DNA of 64,000 nt from Candidatus Chlorohelix allophototropha (lineage in GTDB: Bacteria; Chloroflexota; Chloroflexia; Chloroheliales; Chloroheliaceae). Where the stretch lies: positions 1,612,001 to 1,676,000 of the forward strand of contig NZ_CP128400.1 in NCBI RefSeq assembly GCF_030389965.1, read 5' to 3'. Position 1 is the stretch's first letter. Every line of letters begins with the position of its first letter. Below the pieces are notes generated by a model. It ran no database searches. It was not told where the DNA came from and was given only the letters and a program-made list of their open reading frames with translations. The translations under genes were made by a program, and so were the position numbers. Below, piece by piece: positions 15,099 through 23,820 of the stretch.

Positions 15099-16015
15099 AC
15101 CAAATACCCTGCTTGCTCAAGGGTATTAACAATGTTGCGACCCTCTTCTTGGCTGCTAACCAGCGCATAGAGGGTCGGTCCGCTTCCTGAAACGCGCACG
15201 AACTCTGCTCCGGCGTTCACCATTGCGTTGCGGTAAAAATCTATTTCTGGGAACAGCTCATATACCAACCGTTCAAAACTATTGAATAATAACGATTCGG
15301 ATAGTGACTTTCCCACCCTTATAGATTTCACCAGTTCGCGGGTGATTTGCCCTCCGCTAAAGTCGCTTCGTTCCAAGCTGCGATAGAGGGTGGCGGTTTT
15401 GTTAGCGGGCAAATTTACTTCGGGATAAAGTAATACCATCCAGTATTTGCCCAACGGTGGTAAGGTTGTAAGTTTCTCGCCACGCCCTTCTACTAGCGCA
15501 GTACCACCTCTGATAAAGAATGGCACATCGCTGCCTAACCTCGCCGACATTTCTTCCAGTTTTTCTGTGCTAAGCCCCAAATTCCAGAACCAGTTTATGG
15601 CGAAAAGCGCGGTAGCGGCATCGCTGCTACCCCCGCCCAAACCGGCGGCAACCGGAATAGCTTTTTCGAGATAAAGGCTCACGCCTCGCTTCTTCTCGGC
15701 TGGCAACAACTCGTGCAGCAAATTGGCAGCCCGCCACACCAGATTGGTTTCGTCCACCAATTCGGGTAGATTACAATCAAACTCAATATTCTCTGAAGGC
15801 GCAAGGTATAAGGTATCTGCCAGCGATACGGTTTGCATAACCGAAGCCAGGTCATGAAATCCATCTAGGCGTTTGCCCAGAATTTCGAGGGAAAGATTTA
15901 ACTTGGCGTAAGCTGGAAAACTCTGCCTTTCGGGGTTGTCAGGATTTCCAGCAGCAACGGTTGGGGTGCTTGCTTCGGCGTTTTCCGAAGTTTCAGTATC
16001 AGTAATTTCGCTCAT
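15062..16015 (-). CDS. ispE: 4-diphosphocytidyl-2-C-methyl-D-erythritol kinase
   Basis: IspE phosphorylates CDP-methylerythritol in the MEP isoprenoid pathway. The GHMP-kinase signature is clear: AYAKLNLSLEILGKR near the N-terminus, the ATP loop PVAAGLGGGSSDAATAL, and the C-terminal VRVSGSGPTLYAL. About 30 residues of Ser/Thr/Glu-rich sequence precede the kinase fold. The ATG at 16015 overlaps the stop of the upstream small gene as ATGA, so I prefer it to a TTG three codons earlier. It is the last gene of the minus-strand operon and is convergent and overlapping with pyrD. Confidence 0.94.
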   Translation of the reverse strand: MSEITDTETSENAEASTPTVAAGNPDNPERQSFPAYAKLNLSLEILGKRLDGFHDLASVMQTVSLADTLYLAPSENIEFDCNLPELVDETNLVWRAANLLHELLPAEKKRGVSLYLEKAIPVAAGLGGGSSDAATALFAINWFWNLGLSTEKLEEMSARLGSDVPFFIRGGTALVEGRGEKLTTLPPLGKYWMVLLYPEVNLPANKTATLYRSLERSDFSGGQITRELVKSIRVGKSLSESLLFNSFERLVYELFPEIDFYRNAMVNAGAEFVRVSGSGPTLYALVSSQEEGRNIVNTLEQAGYLVYLAETVESTFA

Positions 16016-16254
16016 TCTCGCCAAATATTCAAGGTGTCGCGTTTTTCTTCTTCGCTCTCCATTACTTCAATAAAGAAGATTTGGTTCCAAGGAAACATTA
16101 TAACTCGCGCCCGTTTATCAATAAAGGTGACAGGGCGATTATCCATCTTGCGCGGGTTGGAGATAGAAACAAAAGAATCTTTAGGGTCAGGAAGCTTCTC
16201 CATTTCGCCAACAATCGCGTCCTGATTGAGTACATGTAAAATTACTATAGCCAC
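16012..16254 (-). CDS. Small conserved-looking protein of unknown function
   Basis: The 80-residue product is rich in beta-type segments (AIVILHVLN, DSFVSISNPR, PVTFIDKRARVIMFPW, NQIFFIEVM). It ends with a charged tail that runs into the ispE start. The pattern suggests a small beta-barrel, perhaps Sm-like, but that is a guess from hydrophobic periodicity. GTG 16254 has GGAG 7 nt upstream; an in-frame TTG at 16284 is a weaker start. Its stop overlaps ispE by 4 bp. Confidence 0.6.
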   Translation of the reverse strand: MAIVILHVLNQDAIVGEMEKLPDPKDSFVSISNPRKMDNRPVTFIDKRARVIMFPWNQIFFIEVMESEEEKRDTLNIWRE

Positions 16255-16307
16255 AACTACTCTCCGTATTTTAAAGGGACCCAAGGTATCCGGTTTATTT
16301 GAATGGA

Positions 16308-16874
16308 CTATTTAGCATCCGGCTTAAATAACACTTTTATAATAGCATTGCCCATCCGGATTTCATCGCCATCTTTTAGCAAACTGGGTTGTCCTCGCAT
16401 TAACACTTGCCTATTGATGAAGGTACGGTTCGTACTACCTAAGTCAGTAAGAAAAGGAACACCATCGCGGAAAGTAATACAAGCGTGCCGTCGCGATACC
16501 CCTAATTCTAGTGCATCATCCGGGGTAAGGTCAATATCAGGGGTTTCACCAGAAACTGCATCACTTCTGCCGATGATAATATTAGAACGGTCGGGGCATT
16601 CCATCCGTCTCCCGGTATTTAATACCACAAGCTTTAAATCCTTGCGCACCGGACCGCTAACCGGAGCAGGTGGCGCTACCGGAAATGTCCCCTGTGGAAT
16701 AACGGGTATGCTAAAGTTAGAAGGCGGGATATTGGCAGTGGTATATTTACTCTCGCGAGAAAGGTCGAGATTGGGGTCAATACCTTCCTCTAACCCGGTT
16801 AAGTCCGCTCCACAATCGTTACAAAAAAGAGTACCTTCTATTTGTTTTGTTCCACAGTTTGGACAGATAATCAT
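16308..16874 (-). CDS. Zinc-ribbon/FHA-domain protein
   Basis: The 188-residue protein begins with a zinc ribbon (CPNCGTKQ ... FCNDCGADL). A proline-rich linker (about 45-75) precedes a C-terminal FHA domain with the phosphothreonine-binding residues IIIGRSD, SRRHACI and DLGSTNRTFIN. FHA domains read phosphothreonine marks, so the Ser/Thr kinase encoded upstream in the same operon is the obvious writer. It lies 36 nt downstream of the VWA gene. Confidence 0.88.
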   Translation of the reverse strand: MIICPNCGTKQIEGTLFCNDCGADLTGLEEGIDPNLDLSRESKYTTANIPPSNFSIPVIPQGTFPVAPPAPVSGPVRKDLKLVVLNTGRRMECPDRSNIIIGRSDAVSGETPDIDLTPDDALELGVSRRHACITFRDGVPFLTDLGSTNRTFINRQVLMRGQPSLLKDGDEIRMGNAIIKVLFKPDAK

Positions 16875-16910
16875 TAATATGACCTTTTTTCTAGCTGTAG
16901 CTACGATGTA

Positions 16911-18251
16911 CTAATCTTCAAAAAGTCCGGTTAGCCCTCTTGTCCCGTACTTTATCCGTTTTTTCCCTTCAGCGGTAGCAATACCTCGAACTTCCAAATT
17001 GTTCAATTCCTGCTCTACCTGCGAAGCCAGAATGGATTCCCCCATATTGAGAAGCTTAGTGCCAACTGCTGCCAACTTTTTTTTACCACCTTCAATATCT
17101 CCACTACTCAAATCTTGCCATGCTTTAGCCTGAAGCTTGAAAGTAGTGATTTTTTCCAGAATGCTCTTAACTTCCGGGTTTATCGGGGAACTATGGATGG
17201 GTTCAGCTATGGTTATACCCACTGGAAGTTTTAAATGCACGGTATTTTTTTGTGCTTCAATAGGGGTGTAGCGCAACGAGAAATCCCCAACACGAAAAAC
17301 TCCCGGCGGGCAGGTAGGCAATAGCAATTCTATTAATACTTTGTAGTCGTGCTTGTATCGCATAACCCCTAACTTGAGATTCAATTCGCCTTTATTATTG
17401 CCGGGAATAATTTCCATTTCGCTAATAGTCGGCACTATTCTATGGGCATTTCTAATTTTGATGCCTTGAACAGGCTGAAATATTAGGGTTGCATTATTAG
17501 TAAGAGTAGCCCGGAACTGCGCGATTTTTTGAAGGAATATTTTGATAATCTGGTCTGCGGAGTTAATAAATTCGGATGAACTGGCTGTTTTTGCTGCAAC
17601 TGTTTCGAGCAAATCCTCATTCCAGTCTGTACCGATACCCATTGGGTGTATGCTAATGTTATTACGCGCGGCTTCCATACCAAGGTAAACACATTGTTCG
17701 GAATCGCCGTAGGTTTGACCATCGGTAAAAAGCATTAGGTGGTTTAATTCGGTGAAATTTGTGGCGCGTTTCATTTCCATGATGCCTTGATTCAGACCTT
17801 GCGCCAGTTCAGTCCCACCTTTTGCCTCAATTGAGTCGATCAGCATTTTGATGTTTTCGCGACTATCGACTCGTTGGCAACCCACCACTACCGTTGCCCG
17901 GTCATTGAAGCTGATCAGGCTGAAAAAATCTTCGTTGGCAAGTTGGTCAACCACCTGTTTAGCGGCTGATTTCAGCGCAAATAGCTTTTCCCCACGCATC
18001 GAACTGCTCTGGTCAACTACTAGACAAATGTTGAGAGGAACATTTCCGCTATTTGATAAATGCTCATGGGTGCTGAGTGTGAAAAGCAGATAAATAACTT
18101 TCTCTACTTTAGAAGCAGGAAAAGCTTGCTGCGAGGGCATATAATCCAGCGTTACAGGTTCATATCCTGGGTAAGCCGATATTAGACGCTCGTTGTTACC
18201 GCCTTTTAATTTATCATTATTATCGAGCGGAACTATATTACGTTCGCTCAT
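16911..18251 (-). CDS. VWA-domain protein
   Basis: The 446-residue protein carries a von Willebrand A domain (about residues 70-250) with a complete MIDAS metal site: DQSSSMRG, a Thr in GGTELAQG, and LFTDGQTYGD. A beta-rich middle and an alpha-helical C-terminus (about 375-435) follow. No signal peptide or membrane helix is seen, so it is probably cytoplasmic. It sits between the PP2C phosphatase gene (18 nt upstream) and the FHA gene and probably acts as a protein-interaction scaffold in the phospho-signalling module; that role is inferred. Confidence 0.85.
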   Translation of the reverse strand: MSERNIVPLDNNDKLKGGNNERLISAYPGYEPVTLDYMPSQQAFPASKVEKVIYLLFTLSTHEHLSNSGNVPLNICLVVDQSSSMRGEKLFALKSAAKQVVDQLANEDFFSLISFNDRATVVVGCQRVDSRENIKMLIDSIEAKGGTELAQGLNQGIMEMKRATNFTELNHLMLFTDGQTYGDSEQCVYLGMEAARNNISIHPMGIGTDWNEDLLETVAAKTASSSEFINSADQIIKIFLQKIAQFRATLTNNATLIFQPVQGIKIRNAHRIVPTISEMEIIPGNNKGELNLKLGVMRYKHDYKVLIELLLPTCPPGVFRVGDFSLRYTPIEAQKNTVHLKLPVGITIAEPIHSSPINPEVKSILEKITTFKLQAKAWQDLSSGDIEGGKKKLAAVGTKLLNMGESILASQVEQELNNLEVRGIATAEGKKRIKYGTRGLTGLFED

Positions 18252-18269
18252 AGCACAAGCCTCATCGGG

Positions 18270-19328
18270 TTATAGTTTGATAACAATAACACTAACGTTA
18301 TCCTCACCACCCGCAGAATTAGCAGAATTAATAAGTTCTTGGCATATGGTAGCCGGCTCATCATATTTGTTGATGATATATGAAATTGACATATCAGGTA
18401 GCATATCCCATAAACCGTCAGAACACAATACCAAATGAGTATATTCAGAAATTCGAAAGAAATCGGTATCGGCTGACATTTCTAACCGTTGTCCTAGTGA
18501 ACGGTACAACACGCTGCGTTGTGGGCTATCCAAGGCTTCCTGAGCGGTAAGTGCCCCTGCTTCAACCAGTCGCGCTACCAAAGAATGATCTTTGGTTATT
18601 TGCTGCAATTGCCGGGTTTCTTTGTTCACGCCATACAATCGGCTATCCCCAATATGCCCTACATATGCCATTGAACCTAGAATTATAATACAGGTCAAGG
18701 TTGTTCCCATATTATGGCGAGCTTCCTGTCCCTGCTCAATTATTAACTGATTGGTATTTTCTATCAGGCGTACAAGTATTTCGCCCGGAGTTTCACCGGT
18801 TGAACCCGGCTTTAAGCCAGATAAAGCTCTCAAGTAAAACTCATTAACTACGTTTTTCGAAGTGGTTCGAATCGCAATATTACTGGCAACCTCCCCGTTT
18901 TCATGTCCACCCATTCCATCCGCAACCGCAAAAAAGCCGAATAATTGCTCTGGTACATTTTCGCTTCGCGGAATAGTGCCCATAAAAACAGTCAAACTAT
19001 CCTCGTTATTGTCCCGAATCATGCCGACATGAGAAGCAAAGGCTGCCTCAATTTGTTGGCATTTGACTTTTTGAGGAATCAGCGAACTCGTGCCGTTAAC
19101 CGTTACATCAATAGGTTTCACCTCAAGTTGAGAAAAATCCATTGATGAAAGCGGTTGTGTAGCCATATCAGGATCAGGTCTTGTAAGCTCTTCGGTTGGC
19201 GCTACTACGGGTAGATTTTCTGTAACTACCGGAGCCTTTTCTTTGCGAGTTTTACTGCGACTACTTTTGCTTTTCTTTTTTTCGCCAGAACCGGGTATGT
19301 CTTTATTAAACAAGCTCATTTCTCCCAT
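18270..19328 (-). CDS. PP2C-family serine/threonine protein phosphatase
   Basis: This is a metal-dependent phosphatase that would reverse phosphorylation by the kinase encoded directly upstream. After a basic, low-complexity N-terminal tail of about 110 residues (lysine/serine-rich KKKSKSSRSKTRKEK), the PP2C domain shows MIRDNNEDS, AVADGMGGHENGE, GHIGDSRLYG, LVLCSDGLWD and GGEDNVSVIVI. All the metal-binding Asp are present. The ATG is 2 nt after the kinase stop; an internal ATG at 19319 is possible. The long basic tail is unusual and might contact nucleic acid or be itself phosphorylated. Confidence 0.93.
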   Translation of the reverse strand: MGEMSLFNKDIPGSGEKKKSKSSRSKTRKEKAPVVTENLPVVAPTEELTRPDPDMATQPLSSMDFSQLEVKPIDVTVNGTSSLIPQKVKCQQIEAAFASHVGMIRDNNEDSLTVFMGTIPRSENVPEQLFGFFAVADGMGGHENGEVASNIAIRTTSKNVVNEFYLRALSGLKPGSTGETPGEILVRLIENTNQLIIEQGQEARHNMGTTLTCIIILGSMAYVGHIGDSRLYGVNKETRQLQQITKDHSLVARLVEAGALTAQEALDSPQRSVLYRSLGQRLEMSADTDFFRISEYTHLVLCSDGLWDMLPDMSISYIINKYDEPATICQELINSANSAGGEDNVSVIVIKL

Positions 19329-19330
19329 GA

Positions 19331-21460
19331 CTATATTGCGATGGCATACAATCGGTTATCGAGGGAACCGATGTAAAGAGTATCATTAGCAATGGCAGGT
19401 GAGCATACGATCGCGTTACCGGTTGGATAGAACCATTTGGCATCACCTTTATCCGCATCCAGCGCATAAATATTGCCGTCTGCAGCCCCGAAGAAAACAA
19501 GCCCATTTGCTACTCGCGGTGAACTTACTATTTGACTTTCGGTGTTAAAAGCCCATAGTTTAGCACCACGTTTAGCATCATAACAGTACAACATACCATC
19601 CCCTGATCCAAAATAAACTTTCCCATTGTGGAAACTAGGAGATGAGCGGATTGGTTTACCCGTTTTAGCTTTCCACACCAGAAAACCGTTTTGGGTATCG
19701 ATGCAATAAAAATTGGAGTCCTCCGAACCGATATATACATACCCGTCTGCAACTGCTGGCGTACTCACAATACTGTTCAAAGTATCAAACTTCCAGTTGA
19801 TGTTGCCTCGTGAAATTTCCAGCGAGTAAAGCTTACGGTCTTCACTACCGATGTAGATGCAACCATTGGCTATAGTAGGCGAACTGCGCACCCTGCCTAA
19901 GGTACGCTGTTTCCACAGCGCTTTGCCGCCCCGAATATCAACCCCATAAACATGGTTATCATCTGAGCCAAAGAACACATAGGATTGGTAGAGTCGCGGT
20001 GAACTGCGAATAGGACCTTGTGCTTGGAAATCCCACATTTGCTGCCCTTTTTGGATTTCGAGCGCATATAGCTTGTGATCCTCACTGCCTACAATTAGCA
20101 GTTGAGTCCCACCGGGAATTTCTGCTATACAAGGGCTACTGCTGATTCCGGCACTGGTGGGGGTTTTCCATAAGAATGAGCCATTTTTTGCATCAAGGGC
20201 GTATATATTGGTGTCATAGCTGCCAATAAAAATCGAGTTGCCGTAAACTAGCGGCGTTGCGCGGATTTCCTCTTCTACCTTGAAATCCCATAACAATTTG
20301 GCTTGAGGCAAATACTCTGGCACAGAAAGAATCCCATCCTTAGCAGATGCTTGTCCGGGACGAGCTACAGGAACCATTTTTGTGCCATCTGTTCCGGTAT
20401 GGGGGCGTATTGTCGGATTAGTGCCCGGTGTTGGCGTAGCGTTGAGTTTGGCTTCGGCTACCTTTGACATATCTAGGTTAAGGGCGTGCGTTCCATGACT
20501 GGTAGCTTCTACAAGTCCGCTTAACTTGTACTGAAACCTTACGAGCGCTGCTTTCATTTCCTCAACGTTTTTCCAACGATCCTCAATAGAAAACTCCAAC
20601 GCTTTCATTACAATCGCTTCCATCTCAGGCGAGATTTTAGGATTAAGCGTTTTTGGCATGCGCTCATGGAAGGTAAAGGGAATTTCCAAGCGAGGGTCGC
20701 TATTGGTAAGAAGGTGGTGCATGGTAGCGCCAAGGGCATAAATATCCCCGGCAGGTTGACCTATACCCTTGTATTGTTCCGGGGGCGAATAGCCCTCTGT
20801 GCCGATCATAGTCCCTTTTTTGTCGTCTAAAAAGACTTTAGCAATACCAAAGTCAATTAGCATCAAACGTCCATCATTATTGAGCATCACGTTTGAAGGT
20901 TTCATATCGCGGAAAATGATAGGACCGGGCTTTTGATTATGTAAATAACTGAGCACTTCACAAAGCTTTATAGCCCATTCCAACACATCGCGTTCATCTA
21001 GCGGAGAATTTGCAGCTTCAAGGAGGGACTCAAGATTTTTCCCATCTACATATTCCAGCACCAAGAAGAAGCGGTCATTGTCTCCGAAGAAATCATAAAT
21101 TTTGGGAATCGAAGCGTGATTGAGCTTGGCAAGAATATTTGCTTCCATCTCAAAGCGTTGCATTTTATCACGCCGCGCCGCCGGGTCGGTGGACATATCA
21201 AACATTTCTTTGACGGCGCATACCCTTACGGTTTGAGTAAATCGCATATCACGGGCGCGGTAAACGGTACTCATACCGCCGTAACCTACTACTTGCTCAA
21301 TTTCGTAGCGACCCTGTAAAACATGCCCACGCGACATGGTACTAGTTGTACCTAGACTATTGCGCAACGAATCCAACTGAGATGTTTGGTCGTCTCGCGG
21401 TTTAACATCTTTGCCGAGTTGTCCCGTTCCTATTTTCTTTAGTAATTTATTAGGTTGCAC
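19331..21460 (-). CDS. Serine/threonine protein kinase fused to PQQ-type beta-propeller repeats
   Basis: The 709-residue protein is a Hanks-type kinase (about residues 45-315) joined by a Thr/Pro-rich linker to about eight PQQ-like repeats (about 375-709). Repeat motifs such as IYALDAKNGSFLWK, VYGVDIRGGKALWK and IYALDADKGDAKW recur. Kinase motifs seen: GYGGMSTVY (P-loop), AVKEMF, IIFRDMKPSNVML with catalytic Asp185, LIDFGIAK and GTEGYSPPEQY. The HRD motif reads FRD, but Lys and Asp are intact, so activity is expected. There is no membrane helix between kinase and propeller, unlike PASTA-type kinases. It is the first gene of the operon and has its own promoter. Confidence 0.93.
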   Translation of the reverse strand: MQPNKLLKKIGTGQLGKDVKPRDDQTSQLDSLRNSLGTTSTMSRGHVLQGRYEIEQVVGYGGMSTVYRARDMRFTQTVRVCAVKEMFDMSTDPAARRDKMQRFEMEANILAKLNHASIPKIYDFFGDNDRFFLVLEYVDGKNLESLLEAANSPLDERDVLEWAIKLCEVLSYLHNQKPGPIIFRDMKPSNVMLNNDGRLMLIDFGIAKVFLDDKKGTMIGTEGYSPPEQYKGIGQPAGDIYALGATMHHLLTNSDPRLEIPFTFHERMPKTLNPKISPEMEAIVMKALEFSIEDRWKNVEEMKAALVRFQYKLSGLVEATSHGTHALNLDMSKVAEAKLNATPTPGTNPTIRPHTGTDGTKMVPVARPGQASAKDGILSVPEYLPQAKLLWDFKVEEEIRATPLVYGNSIFIGSYDTNIYALDAKNGSFLWKTPTSAGISSSPCIAEIPGGTQLLIVGSEDHKLYALEIQKGQQMWDFQAQGPIRSSPRLYQSYVFFGSDDNHVYGVDIRGGKALWKQRTLGRVRSSPTIANGCIYIGSEDRKLYSLEISRGNINWKFDTLNSIVSTPAVADGYVYIGSEDSNFYCIDTQNGFLVWKAKTGKPIRSSPSFHNGKVYFGSGDGMLYCYDAKRGAKLWAFNTESQIVSSPRVANGLVFFGAADGNIYALDADKGDAKWFYPTGNAIVCSPAIANDTLYIGSLDNRLYAIAI

Positions 21461-21693: not shown

Positions 21694-22776
21694 TTAGAGT
21701 TTCCAGATGGTATTATGTACGCTGGTTTCGATCCCGCAGTAAGTACAACGTTCTCGCTCTAAACCGCTAGAGACAGCTTCTGTCTCAGTACGTGAAATTA
21801 ATAATCTATGACATTTATAGCAAAATGTATTACCTCCGGCAGTATTATCGCTATTTATTGTCACTCCTGCACTAGCCAACTGGATTTTTTGTTGCTCCAC
21901 ATTATGAAGATATACGTACTTCAAATCGTTTTCTTCTGCCAGTGATTTAATATACCATAAGATGGTGGGATCTCCATCGCCTGCCAATGACAAATGCCAG
22001 GGAGTGGTTTCGCCTAATACCTGCTTAATCCATGCTGCAATAGTTTTCATTTCGGTAGTAGAATCGTTTATTCCGGGAACAATTCTGGTATTTATTTCCA
22101 CATGAACTTTGAATTTACGTTGCGCTTGGCTGGCATTTTCCAGAATCTGCTGGAATTGGGTTTGTCCACTGAATACCCGGAAAGTTTCTTCGTTGAACGA
22201 ATTTATCTCTAACAAAATACCATCAAGATAATCACCGATATTATTCAATACTTCTGAGGTGAAATAGCCGTTCGAAACAATAGCAGTGAACATGCCGTTA
22301 GCTTTAACCAGTCGCATTGCATCGTAAAGAAATTCATACCACATGCTTGGTTCGTTATAAGCAAATACCACGCCGCGACAGCGTTGCTCAATACTGAACT
22401 TTATGATCTTTTCTACGGGTAATACCCTGATATTGCCTGAAGGAAAATCATCATTATGATCCACTCCACCCACTCTGGGGTAGTTCAGCCCATAACCGCC
22501 AATCGAGAACACTTTTGTACCGGGGAAAAAATGGTAGAAATACTTACGTTCTATCGGTTCAAGGTCGGCGTGGCTGATTATGCCATAGTTCAGGGTGACG
22601 AGTTTTCCGGCACGGTTGGTACGTACTTTGCATACGCCGCTTTGACCTTCTGACAGTTCGCAGCTTATTTCACAAACTTTGCAGCGTATAGCCTCAGAGG
22701 AAGTTGCCTCAAATAAAGGCACAGGCTTGATAGCGGTATCTGGTATATTTCCGCCAATCTGATTATTCTCGGTCAC
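21694..22776 (-). CDS. Radical-SAM-like protein of the AmmeMemoRadiSam type, lacking the cluster cysteines
   Basis: The 360-residue protein follows the AmmeMemoRadiSam radical SAM enzyme layout. It has an N-terminal Cys motif (CKVCEISC ... GQSGVCKV), TLNYGIISHADLEPIE, FPGTKVFSIGG, VVFAYNEPSMWYE, VSNGYFTSE, INTRIVPGINDS and a C-terminal zinc ribbon (FCYKCHRLL ... CTYCG). Where the family has SIGTxGCNxxCxFCQN, this protein reads SIGGYGLNYPRVGGVDHND. All three cysteines of the CxxxCxxC [4Fe-4S] motif are replaced while the frame stays open. It should therefore not do standard radical SAM chemistry. It may be a pseudoenzyme or bind something else. AMMECR1- and MEMO-type partner genes are not adjacent. 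Confidence 0.82.
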   Translation of the reverse strand: MTENNQIGGNIPDTAIKPVPLFEATSSEAIRCKVCEISCELSEGQSGVCKVRTNRAGKLVTLNYGIISHADLEPIERKYFYHFFPGTKVFSIGGYGLNYPRVGGVDHNDDFPSGNIRVLPVEKIIKFSIEQRCRGVVFAYNEPSMWYEFLYDAMRLVKANGMFTAIVSNGYFTSEVLNNIGDYLDGILLEINSFNEETFRVFSGQTQFQQILENASQAQRKFKVHVEINTRIVPGINDSTTEMKTIAAWIKQVLGETTPWHLSLAGDGDPTILWYIKSLAEENDLKYVYLHNVEQQKIQLASAGVTINSDNTAGGNTFCYKCHRLLISRTETEAVSSGLERERCTYCGIETSVHNTIWKL

Positions 22777-22992: not shown

Positions 22993-23820
22993 GTGTCCGA
23001 AGAAAATAATTACAAACCTCAGCCAACTTTGCCTCAGGCTATGGAATCTCCAATCGTGCCGCAACCCACCTCTGAAGTGGTTGTTGAGCAATATGGTTAC
23101 CGGAACTCTGCCGCCGATGCTTCCGCTGAACCGATGGAGGGTCAGATAGTTTCTGAGGAGAGTCAAAGCTTAGACGACTTGCCCACTACTTCTCCAGTTC
23201 CAGCGAAGGCGGTATCCCCCAAACCGCATAAATCTTTTTGGAGAGAGGTGCTGGAAACTGTTATTCTTACCATACTGATTTTTTTCCTTGCTCAATCGCT
23301 CATCCAGCCTTTTCGGATTCAGGGCAGCAGTATGGAGCCGAATTTTCACACCGACCAGTTATTGATGGTTAATAAAGCAGCCTATTTTCATTTTGATGTT
23401 AACCCTTGGTTGCGTTTAATACCGGGTGTTAAGGCGGAAGGCTCAAGTGTTTGGTGGGTCTTTGGCGGACCAAAGCGTGGAGATGTGGTGGTTTTTGAAT
23501 ATCCACGTGACCCAAGCCAGGACTATATAAAACGAGTCATAGGTTTTCCGGGTGAAAAAGTGGAAGTACGCTCCGGTGTGGTCTATGTCAATGACCAACC
23601 TTTAACCGAGCCTTACATAAAGGAAGCCTCGCTTTCTCCCTACGGACCGATGGTTGTACCTGAGGGGACTCTATTTGTACTTGGTGATAATCGAAACGGC
23701 AGTAGTGACTCGCGTGCATGGGGTTTTCTGCCAATTGACCGGATAATCGGAAAAGCTATGATTGCCTACTGGCCTCTCGGTAAAGGTTGGGGCATAGTAA
23801 ACGAGGCTAGTTACAACTAA
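22993..23820 (+). CDS. lepB: Signal peptidase I
   Basis: LepB cleaves signal peptides of exported proteins at the outer face of the membrane. The 275-residue protein has a single membrane segment (about residues 86-105) and then the catalytic Ser113 in IQGSSMEPN. The catalytic Lys180 follows in DYIKRVIGFPGE, with the C-terminal box GDNRNGSSDSRAWG. The cytoplasmic N-terminal extension of about 80 residues is rich in Pro, Glu and Ser and is long for a single-pass LepB. GTG has AAGGAG about 10 nt upstream. The DUF151 gene follows on the same strand. Confidence 0.95.
   Translation: MSEENNYKPQPTLPQAMESPIVPQPTSEVVVEQYGYRNSAADASAEPMEGQIVSEESQSLDDLPTTSPVPAKAVSPKPHKSFWREVLETVILTILIFFLAQSLIQPFRIQGSSMEPNFHTDQLLMVNKAAYFHFDVNPWLRLIPGVKAEGSSVWWVFGGPKRGDVVVFEYPRDPSQDYIKRVIGFPGEKVEVRSGVVYVNDQPLTEPYIKEASLSPYGPMVVPEGTLFVLGDNRNGSSDSRAWGFLPIDRIIGKAMIAYWPLGKGWGIVNEASYN

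Follow-up and report, generated by a model that had tools for sequence, protein, structure and literature searches.

The gene of interest in the window, by which we mean the whole 64,000-nucleotide stretch of the Candidatus Chlorohelix allophototropha genome analyzed here, is very likely, judging from sequence comparisons, to encode a conserved, non-radical pseudoenzyme derived from the radical-SAM (RS) protein of the AmmeMemoRadiSam family, although a minority share of this reading could belong to a cluster-independent enzyme. Catalytic residues have been lost throughout the clade to which the protein belongs while the fold has stayed under purifying selection, and status as a pseudoenzyme is well supported. 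The lineage derives from the AmmeMemoRadiSam RS family but is not an equivalent member of it. The features that bear on these conclusions are collected in Table 1, in which families of the class Chloroflexia are numbered and f1 is the family of the window.

Table 1. Features of the cluster-less gene and its surroundings (positions in the window)
Feature	Position	Strand	Remarks
Cluster-less radical-SAM-fold protein gene	21694..22776	(-)	Open frame, 360 aa, GTG start
Former cluster loop, residues 93-109 (GGYGLNYPRVGGVDHND)	22450..22500	(-)	Canonical members have G-CNFHCxxCQNWEI here
N-terminal Cys4 set C32-x2-C35-x3-C39-x9-C49	22630..22683	(-)	Putative metal (Zn) site
C-terminal ribbon CxxC...CxxC (C319, C322, C344, C347)	21736..21822	(-)	36/36 rows, 63/63 full-length proteins
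Ser/Thr kinase + PQQ-type beta-propeller fusion	19331..21460	(-)	Pkinase 137 bits; 233-bp gap downstream of the gene
PP2C phosphatase	18270..19328	(-)	Pfam PP2C; order conserved
VWA-domain protein	16911..18251	(-)	Pfam VWA; order conserved
Zinc-ribbon + FHA protein	16308..16874	(-)	Pfam FHA 62.7 bits, Zn_Ribbon_1; same place in f1 and f5
Small conserved ORF at the cassette end	16012..16284	(-)	90 aa (82-84 aa in relatives); phmmer match in f1 and f5
Signal peptidase I	22993..23820	(+)	Pfam Peptidase_S26; divergent neighbor, likewise in f5 and most f6

The former cluster loop and family membership

The complete set of cysteines in the protein comprises C32, C35, C39, C49, C133, C319, C322, C344 and C347, and none of the spacings CxxxCxxC, CX4CX2C or CX5CX2C was found anywhere in its 360 residues. 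Codon by codon, residues 93-110 read GGYGLNYPRVGGVDHNDD, in agreement at base level with the original prediction that the radical-SAM cluster cysteines are gone. In a profile alignment with canonical relatives (E 5e-95), the canonical GCNFHC..CQNW falls on GLNYPRVGGVDH, and therefore no other placement restores CxxxCxxC; neither this alignment nor the motif scan of the whole protein yielded the alternative, foreseen at the outset, of a cluster motif elsewhere. The two other frames at the former motif site contain stops and no CxxxCxxC-type motif. A displaced CxxxCxxC, or cysteines hidden by a frameshift, can be ruled out, as the three frames at this spot and the whole protein were scanned.

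The extent of the loss was assessed by comparing 36 cluster-less with 36 canonical rows. Canonical rows carry CNFxCxxCQNW, a DxK motif and an RFxP...PT segment. The DxK lysine, which is present in all 36 canonical rows and in none of the cluster-less ones (R, N, Y, I or L instead), aligns with K131 of pyruvate formate-lyase activating enzyme (PFL-AE), a SAM-site residue, and the cluster-less rows have lost the RFxP...PT segment. The flanking cysteine motifs and the C-terminal ribbon are retained in 36/36 rows, and the reading frame of the window gene is intact, as the original prediction stated. The N-terminal CxxCxxxC-x9-C occurs in every row of both sets, and because canonical members have it too, these cysteines are not relocated cluster ligands; both Cys4 sites are probably zinc sites. 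Also retained in the clade are the eight structural cysteines, H82, P85, G93, G96, E148, H225, E227, N237 and W249. The position of E142, at the barrel mouth, is E or D in all 36 cluster-less rows and H261 is mostly kept, so that some ligand may still bind. At R52, A70, R117, R134, Y183 and G235 the clade shows no variation, unlike the nearest canonical rows.

The assignment to the AmmeMemoRadiSam type in the original prediction stands in part. It holds by descent, as shown by homology along the full length, the shared N-terminal Cys4 set and C-terminal ribbon, and the position in the tree. Unlike the AmmeMemoRadiSam RS enzyme, however, the protein has neither CxxxCxxC nor the SAM-site lysine, its match to TIGR04337 (AmmeMemoRadiSam; residues 24-351, 158.8 bits, E 1.5e-46) lies below the curated cut-off of 220 bits, and its host has neither Memo nor AMMECR1. 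Canonical Chloroflexota relatives score 270-313 bits against the same model. The window gene is the sole TIGR04337 match in the 6.09-Mb, five-contig genome, and no second, canonical RS copy was found there. A radical-SAM barrel is indicated both by PF04055 (48.8 bits, above the 29.5 cut-off) and by structure: the AlphaFold2 model (pLDDT 82) has a confident barrel, with residues 101-108 of the former loop below pLDDT 50, and its closest solved fold is PFL-AE (PDB 3c8f, 3cb8; Z 20.4, rmsd 2.9 over 215 residues, residues 1-63 barely covered). PFL-AE shares the partial barrel at about 20% identity, but it carries the cluster motif, and neither of the Cys4 appendages is present in it. A viperin-type defense function was rejected, the pVip matches being weak and those of a generic barrel (30 bits).

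Distribution, phylogeny and selection

Homologues scoring 110-175 bits were found in many of 61 related genomes, and alignment showed them to be motif-less; canonical copies score higher. Among 400 sampled genomes of the phylum, the Chloroflexia group splits from the canonical proteins of other classes. When all 158 available genomes of class Chloroflexia were searched, 67 matched, distributed over seven families: 5/5 genomes in f1, 37/41 of those listed in f6, 9/9 of those listed in f8 (Herpetosiphon-type), 11 genomes in f10, 3/6 of those listed in f11, and one genome each in f4 and f5. A scan of named genomes that used an alignment with a single peptide pattern, and is limited in reach accordingly, matched Chloroflexus, Oscillochloris, Chloroploca, Viridilinea, Herpetosiphon (including the complete Herpetosiphon aurantiacus genome CP000875) and f1-type MAGs, whereas a single-sequence scan of the same contigs gave no match. 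Nearly all phototrophic and gliding relatives within the class have a copy with the same change. All 63 distinct full-length cluster-less Chloroflexia proteins keep the N-terminal CxxCxxxC and two C-terminal CxxC motifs, and only one, from genome G007 (f4), retains a loop cysteine (GNNLACRHR). The loss is common to dozens of independent genomes, which rules out chance or an error in sequencing.

A tree computed without the motif columns places all 36 cluster-less rows in one clade (support 100/99; 100% of 200 bootstrap trees), and a clade sharing the loss is what the original prediction had proposed to look for. This clade is nested within canonical Chloroflexota proteins near a Dehalococcoidia-type group, with a weak exact sister fork (84/30). 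On this topology, the loss of the cluster would most simply be one ancient event in an ancestor within class Chloroflexia. The sequences of G007 and G008 (f5) are deep branches with long rows, and their branching order is therefore unsure.

G007 has several RS paralogues, both canonical and cluster-less (loci L035 (G007:C60), L055, L056 and L054), and beside one canonical paralogue Memo and AMMECR1 are encoded together in one frame. Its cluster-less locus, ordered RS-Memo-kinase-PP2C (the kinase being an STPK) and with one of the three cysteines kept, is possibly the nearest to an intermediate. Canonical and cluster-less copies also coexist in G033, G047 and G049, and because some hosts carry both types, avoidance of oxygen does not suffice as a straightforward explanation for the loss.

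Pairwise Nei-Gojobori dN/dS ranged from 0.015 to 0.17 among pairs with unsaturated dS from seven genera or families. The former loop is constrained about as strongly as the remaining gene in most f6 and f8 pairs, and in closer f1 pairs its dN reaches approximately 2-3 times the whole-gene value. These ratios indicate that the gene has been under purifying selection since the loss and, together with the shared clade, bear out the earlier view that it is not decaying.

Former partners and the kinase-phosphatase cassette

Neither Memo nor AMMECR1 had a match in the genome of the window, in which positive controls did match, and neither was found in f1, f5, f11 and most f6 genomes. In f10 genomes, Memo is often present elsewhere and AMMECR1 is absent. 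Canonical relatives in other Chloroflexota lie in RS-Memo-AMMECR1 operons, with AMMECR1 adjacent, and Memo often so, in Dehalococcoidia-type genomes. In G079 and G104, a single frame of 439 aa encodes both partners; among Dehalococcoidia-type genomes (L098 6490-8843, G079), a Memo-AMMECR1 frame of 438-439 aa adjoins the canonical RS gene and represents a natural fusion. In two cluster-less settings a partner gene is still adjacent: in f8 the gene lies directly before AMMECR1 in genomes without Memo, and in G007 it precedes Memo. The Herpetosiphon-type AMMECR1 (L039 8499-9071, L042 10577-11104, L044) has a pseudoenzyme as its sole partner. Both partners have been lost from most lineages, and there the protein has outlived them.

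On its divergent side, the gene has a linkage to signal peptidase I that is old and without obvious reason. It recurs in f6, and across several families (L037, L040, L045, L053 and others) signal peptidase I is encoded divergently from the cluster-less gene, often with a glycosyltransferase gene next in line.

On the other side lies a cassette whose order (RS-kinase/propeller-PP2C-VWA-FHA-small ORF) is the same in f5 and in each of the five f1 genomes. The cluster-less gene and the kinase gene are separated by 170-350 bp in f1 and by more than that in f5, so that co-transcription of the two is not assured. The link is limited to f1, f5 and partly f4; elsewhere, the best VWA homologues are distant from the gene. 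A comparable arrangement is the TerY-P triad of VWA, PP2C and kinase-zinc ribbon proteins, described in PMC11090510 as a putative metal-sensing phosphorylation switch. Here, too, genes for VWA, PP2C and Ser/Thr kinase proteins are neighbors, but the TerY-P kinase carries a zinc ribbon whereas that of the window carries a PQQ-type beta-propeller, and the cassette is extended by the cluster-less RS gene and by a zinc ribbon-FHA protein with a gene of its own. Positions 16012-21460 hold a variant of a TerY-P-like triad conserved in f1 and f5. Radical-SAM domains related to those of the Memo-Ammecr1 systems have also been placed by Kaur et al., as peptide modifiers, in FtsH-ternary vWA-MoxR conflict systems (PMC7159879). 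A related RS subfamily near a VWA protein is common to those systems and the window, but their MoxR and FtsH partners are absent from the cassette.

Origin, possible roles and alternatives

The sequences show the following course of events. In an ancestor belonging to class Chloroflexia, an RS protein of the type that acts next to Memo and AMMECR1 lost the three [4Fe-4S] ligands; the QNW segment behind them, the lysine of the SAM site and some of the pocket went as well. The barrel core and two Cys4 sites were retained, and the protein has been under purifying selection ever since. Without the [4Fe-4S] cluster, such a protein should be unable, by established radical-SAM chemistry, to cleave SAM reductively to the 5'-deoxyadenosyl radical. 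Its present role would be that of a metal-stabilized binding, adaptor or regulatory protein, and this binding or scaffold function could descend from contacts with AMMECR1 and Memo. In f1, we tentatively suggest that the protein works with the adjacent kinase-propeller/PP2C/VWA/FHA phosphosignaling cassette, whether as its substrate, as a sensor input or as a partner, although we regard this as somewhat less than an even prospect. A fuller scenario, in which a single early event in Chloroflexia turned an RS enzyme from the Memo-AMMECR1 pathway into a zinc-bound adaptor or sensor that joined a kinase-phosphatase-VWA-FHA switch in the Chlorohelix lineage, is more speculative still.

Several other explanations were weighed. 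The most serious is that the protein is a cluster-independent enzyme whose barrel binds a SAM-like or other ligand for non-radical chemistry, for example through E142, E148, H225, E227 and N237. The invariance of the last four, the acidic residue at position 142 in every row and the fixation of R117 and R134 in the cluster-less clade only are consistent with such an activity; however, several of the invariant residues may be structural, since the canonical proteins have them too, the clade shows the RFxP...PT segment either missing or replaced, and the barrel has no known ligand, and we consider this unlikely. Radical-SAM enzymes without CxxxCxxC do exist, among them Dph2 and ThiC, and it could be argued by analogy with diphthamide synthesis and ThiC that the N-terminal CxxCxxxC...C set, invariant in the cluster-less proteins, carries a replacement cluster in a non-canonical radical-SAM or other Fe-S enzyme. 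This appears improbable, given that 36/36 canonical rows have these four cysteines in addition to CxxxCxxC, which marks them as an older, separate site, that ligation by four cysteines leaves no open iron for SAM, and that the SAM-site lysine and pocket segment have been lost as well.

A decaying relic awaiting loss would fit the faster evolution of the former loop in f1 and the disappearance of partner genes from most hosts, yet it is contradicted by the low dN/dS, by occurrence in seven families, and by the structural cysteine motifs kept in 63/63 proteins along with clade-specific invariant residues, and we give it very little weight. Least credible of all is an error of sequencing, assembly or alignment: no evidence in its support was found, many studies have yielded isolate genomes and MAGs with the same loss, the complete Herpetosiphon aurantiacus genome among them, and the profile alignment is unambiguous.

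Memo-Ammecr1-radical SAM systems were reportedly described by Burroughs et al. 2019, as cited in PMC7159879. Among the papers covered by our literature search, none described this clade or a conserved, clade-wide loss of the motif. The retention of an RS protein without radical chemistry, accompanied by AMMECR1 in Herpetosiphon, makes the structural and catalytic roles of the RS component separable and open to testing. Memo and AMMECR1 have human relatives, and to our knowledge no biochemical function of the Memo-AMMECR1-RS system has been agreed upon.

In summary, if the reading as a zinc-bound adaptor or sensor is true, the cluster-less protein would constitute a class-wide signaling pseudoenzyme of radical-SAM origin. 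Radical-SAM proteins are normally identified through their cluster motif, and radical-SAM family matches in Chloroflexus and its relatives should not be taken as evidence for radical chemistry.
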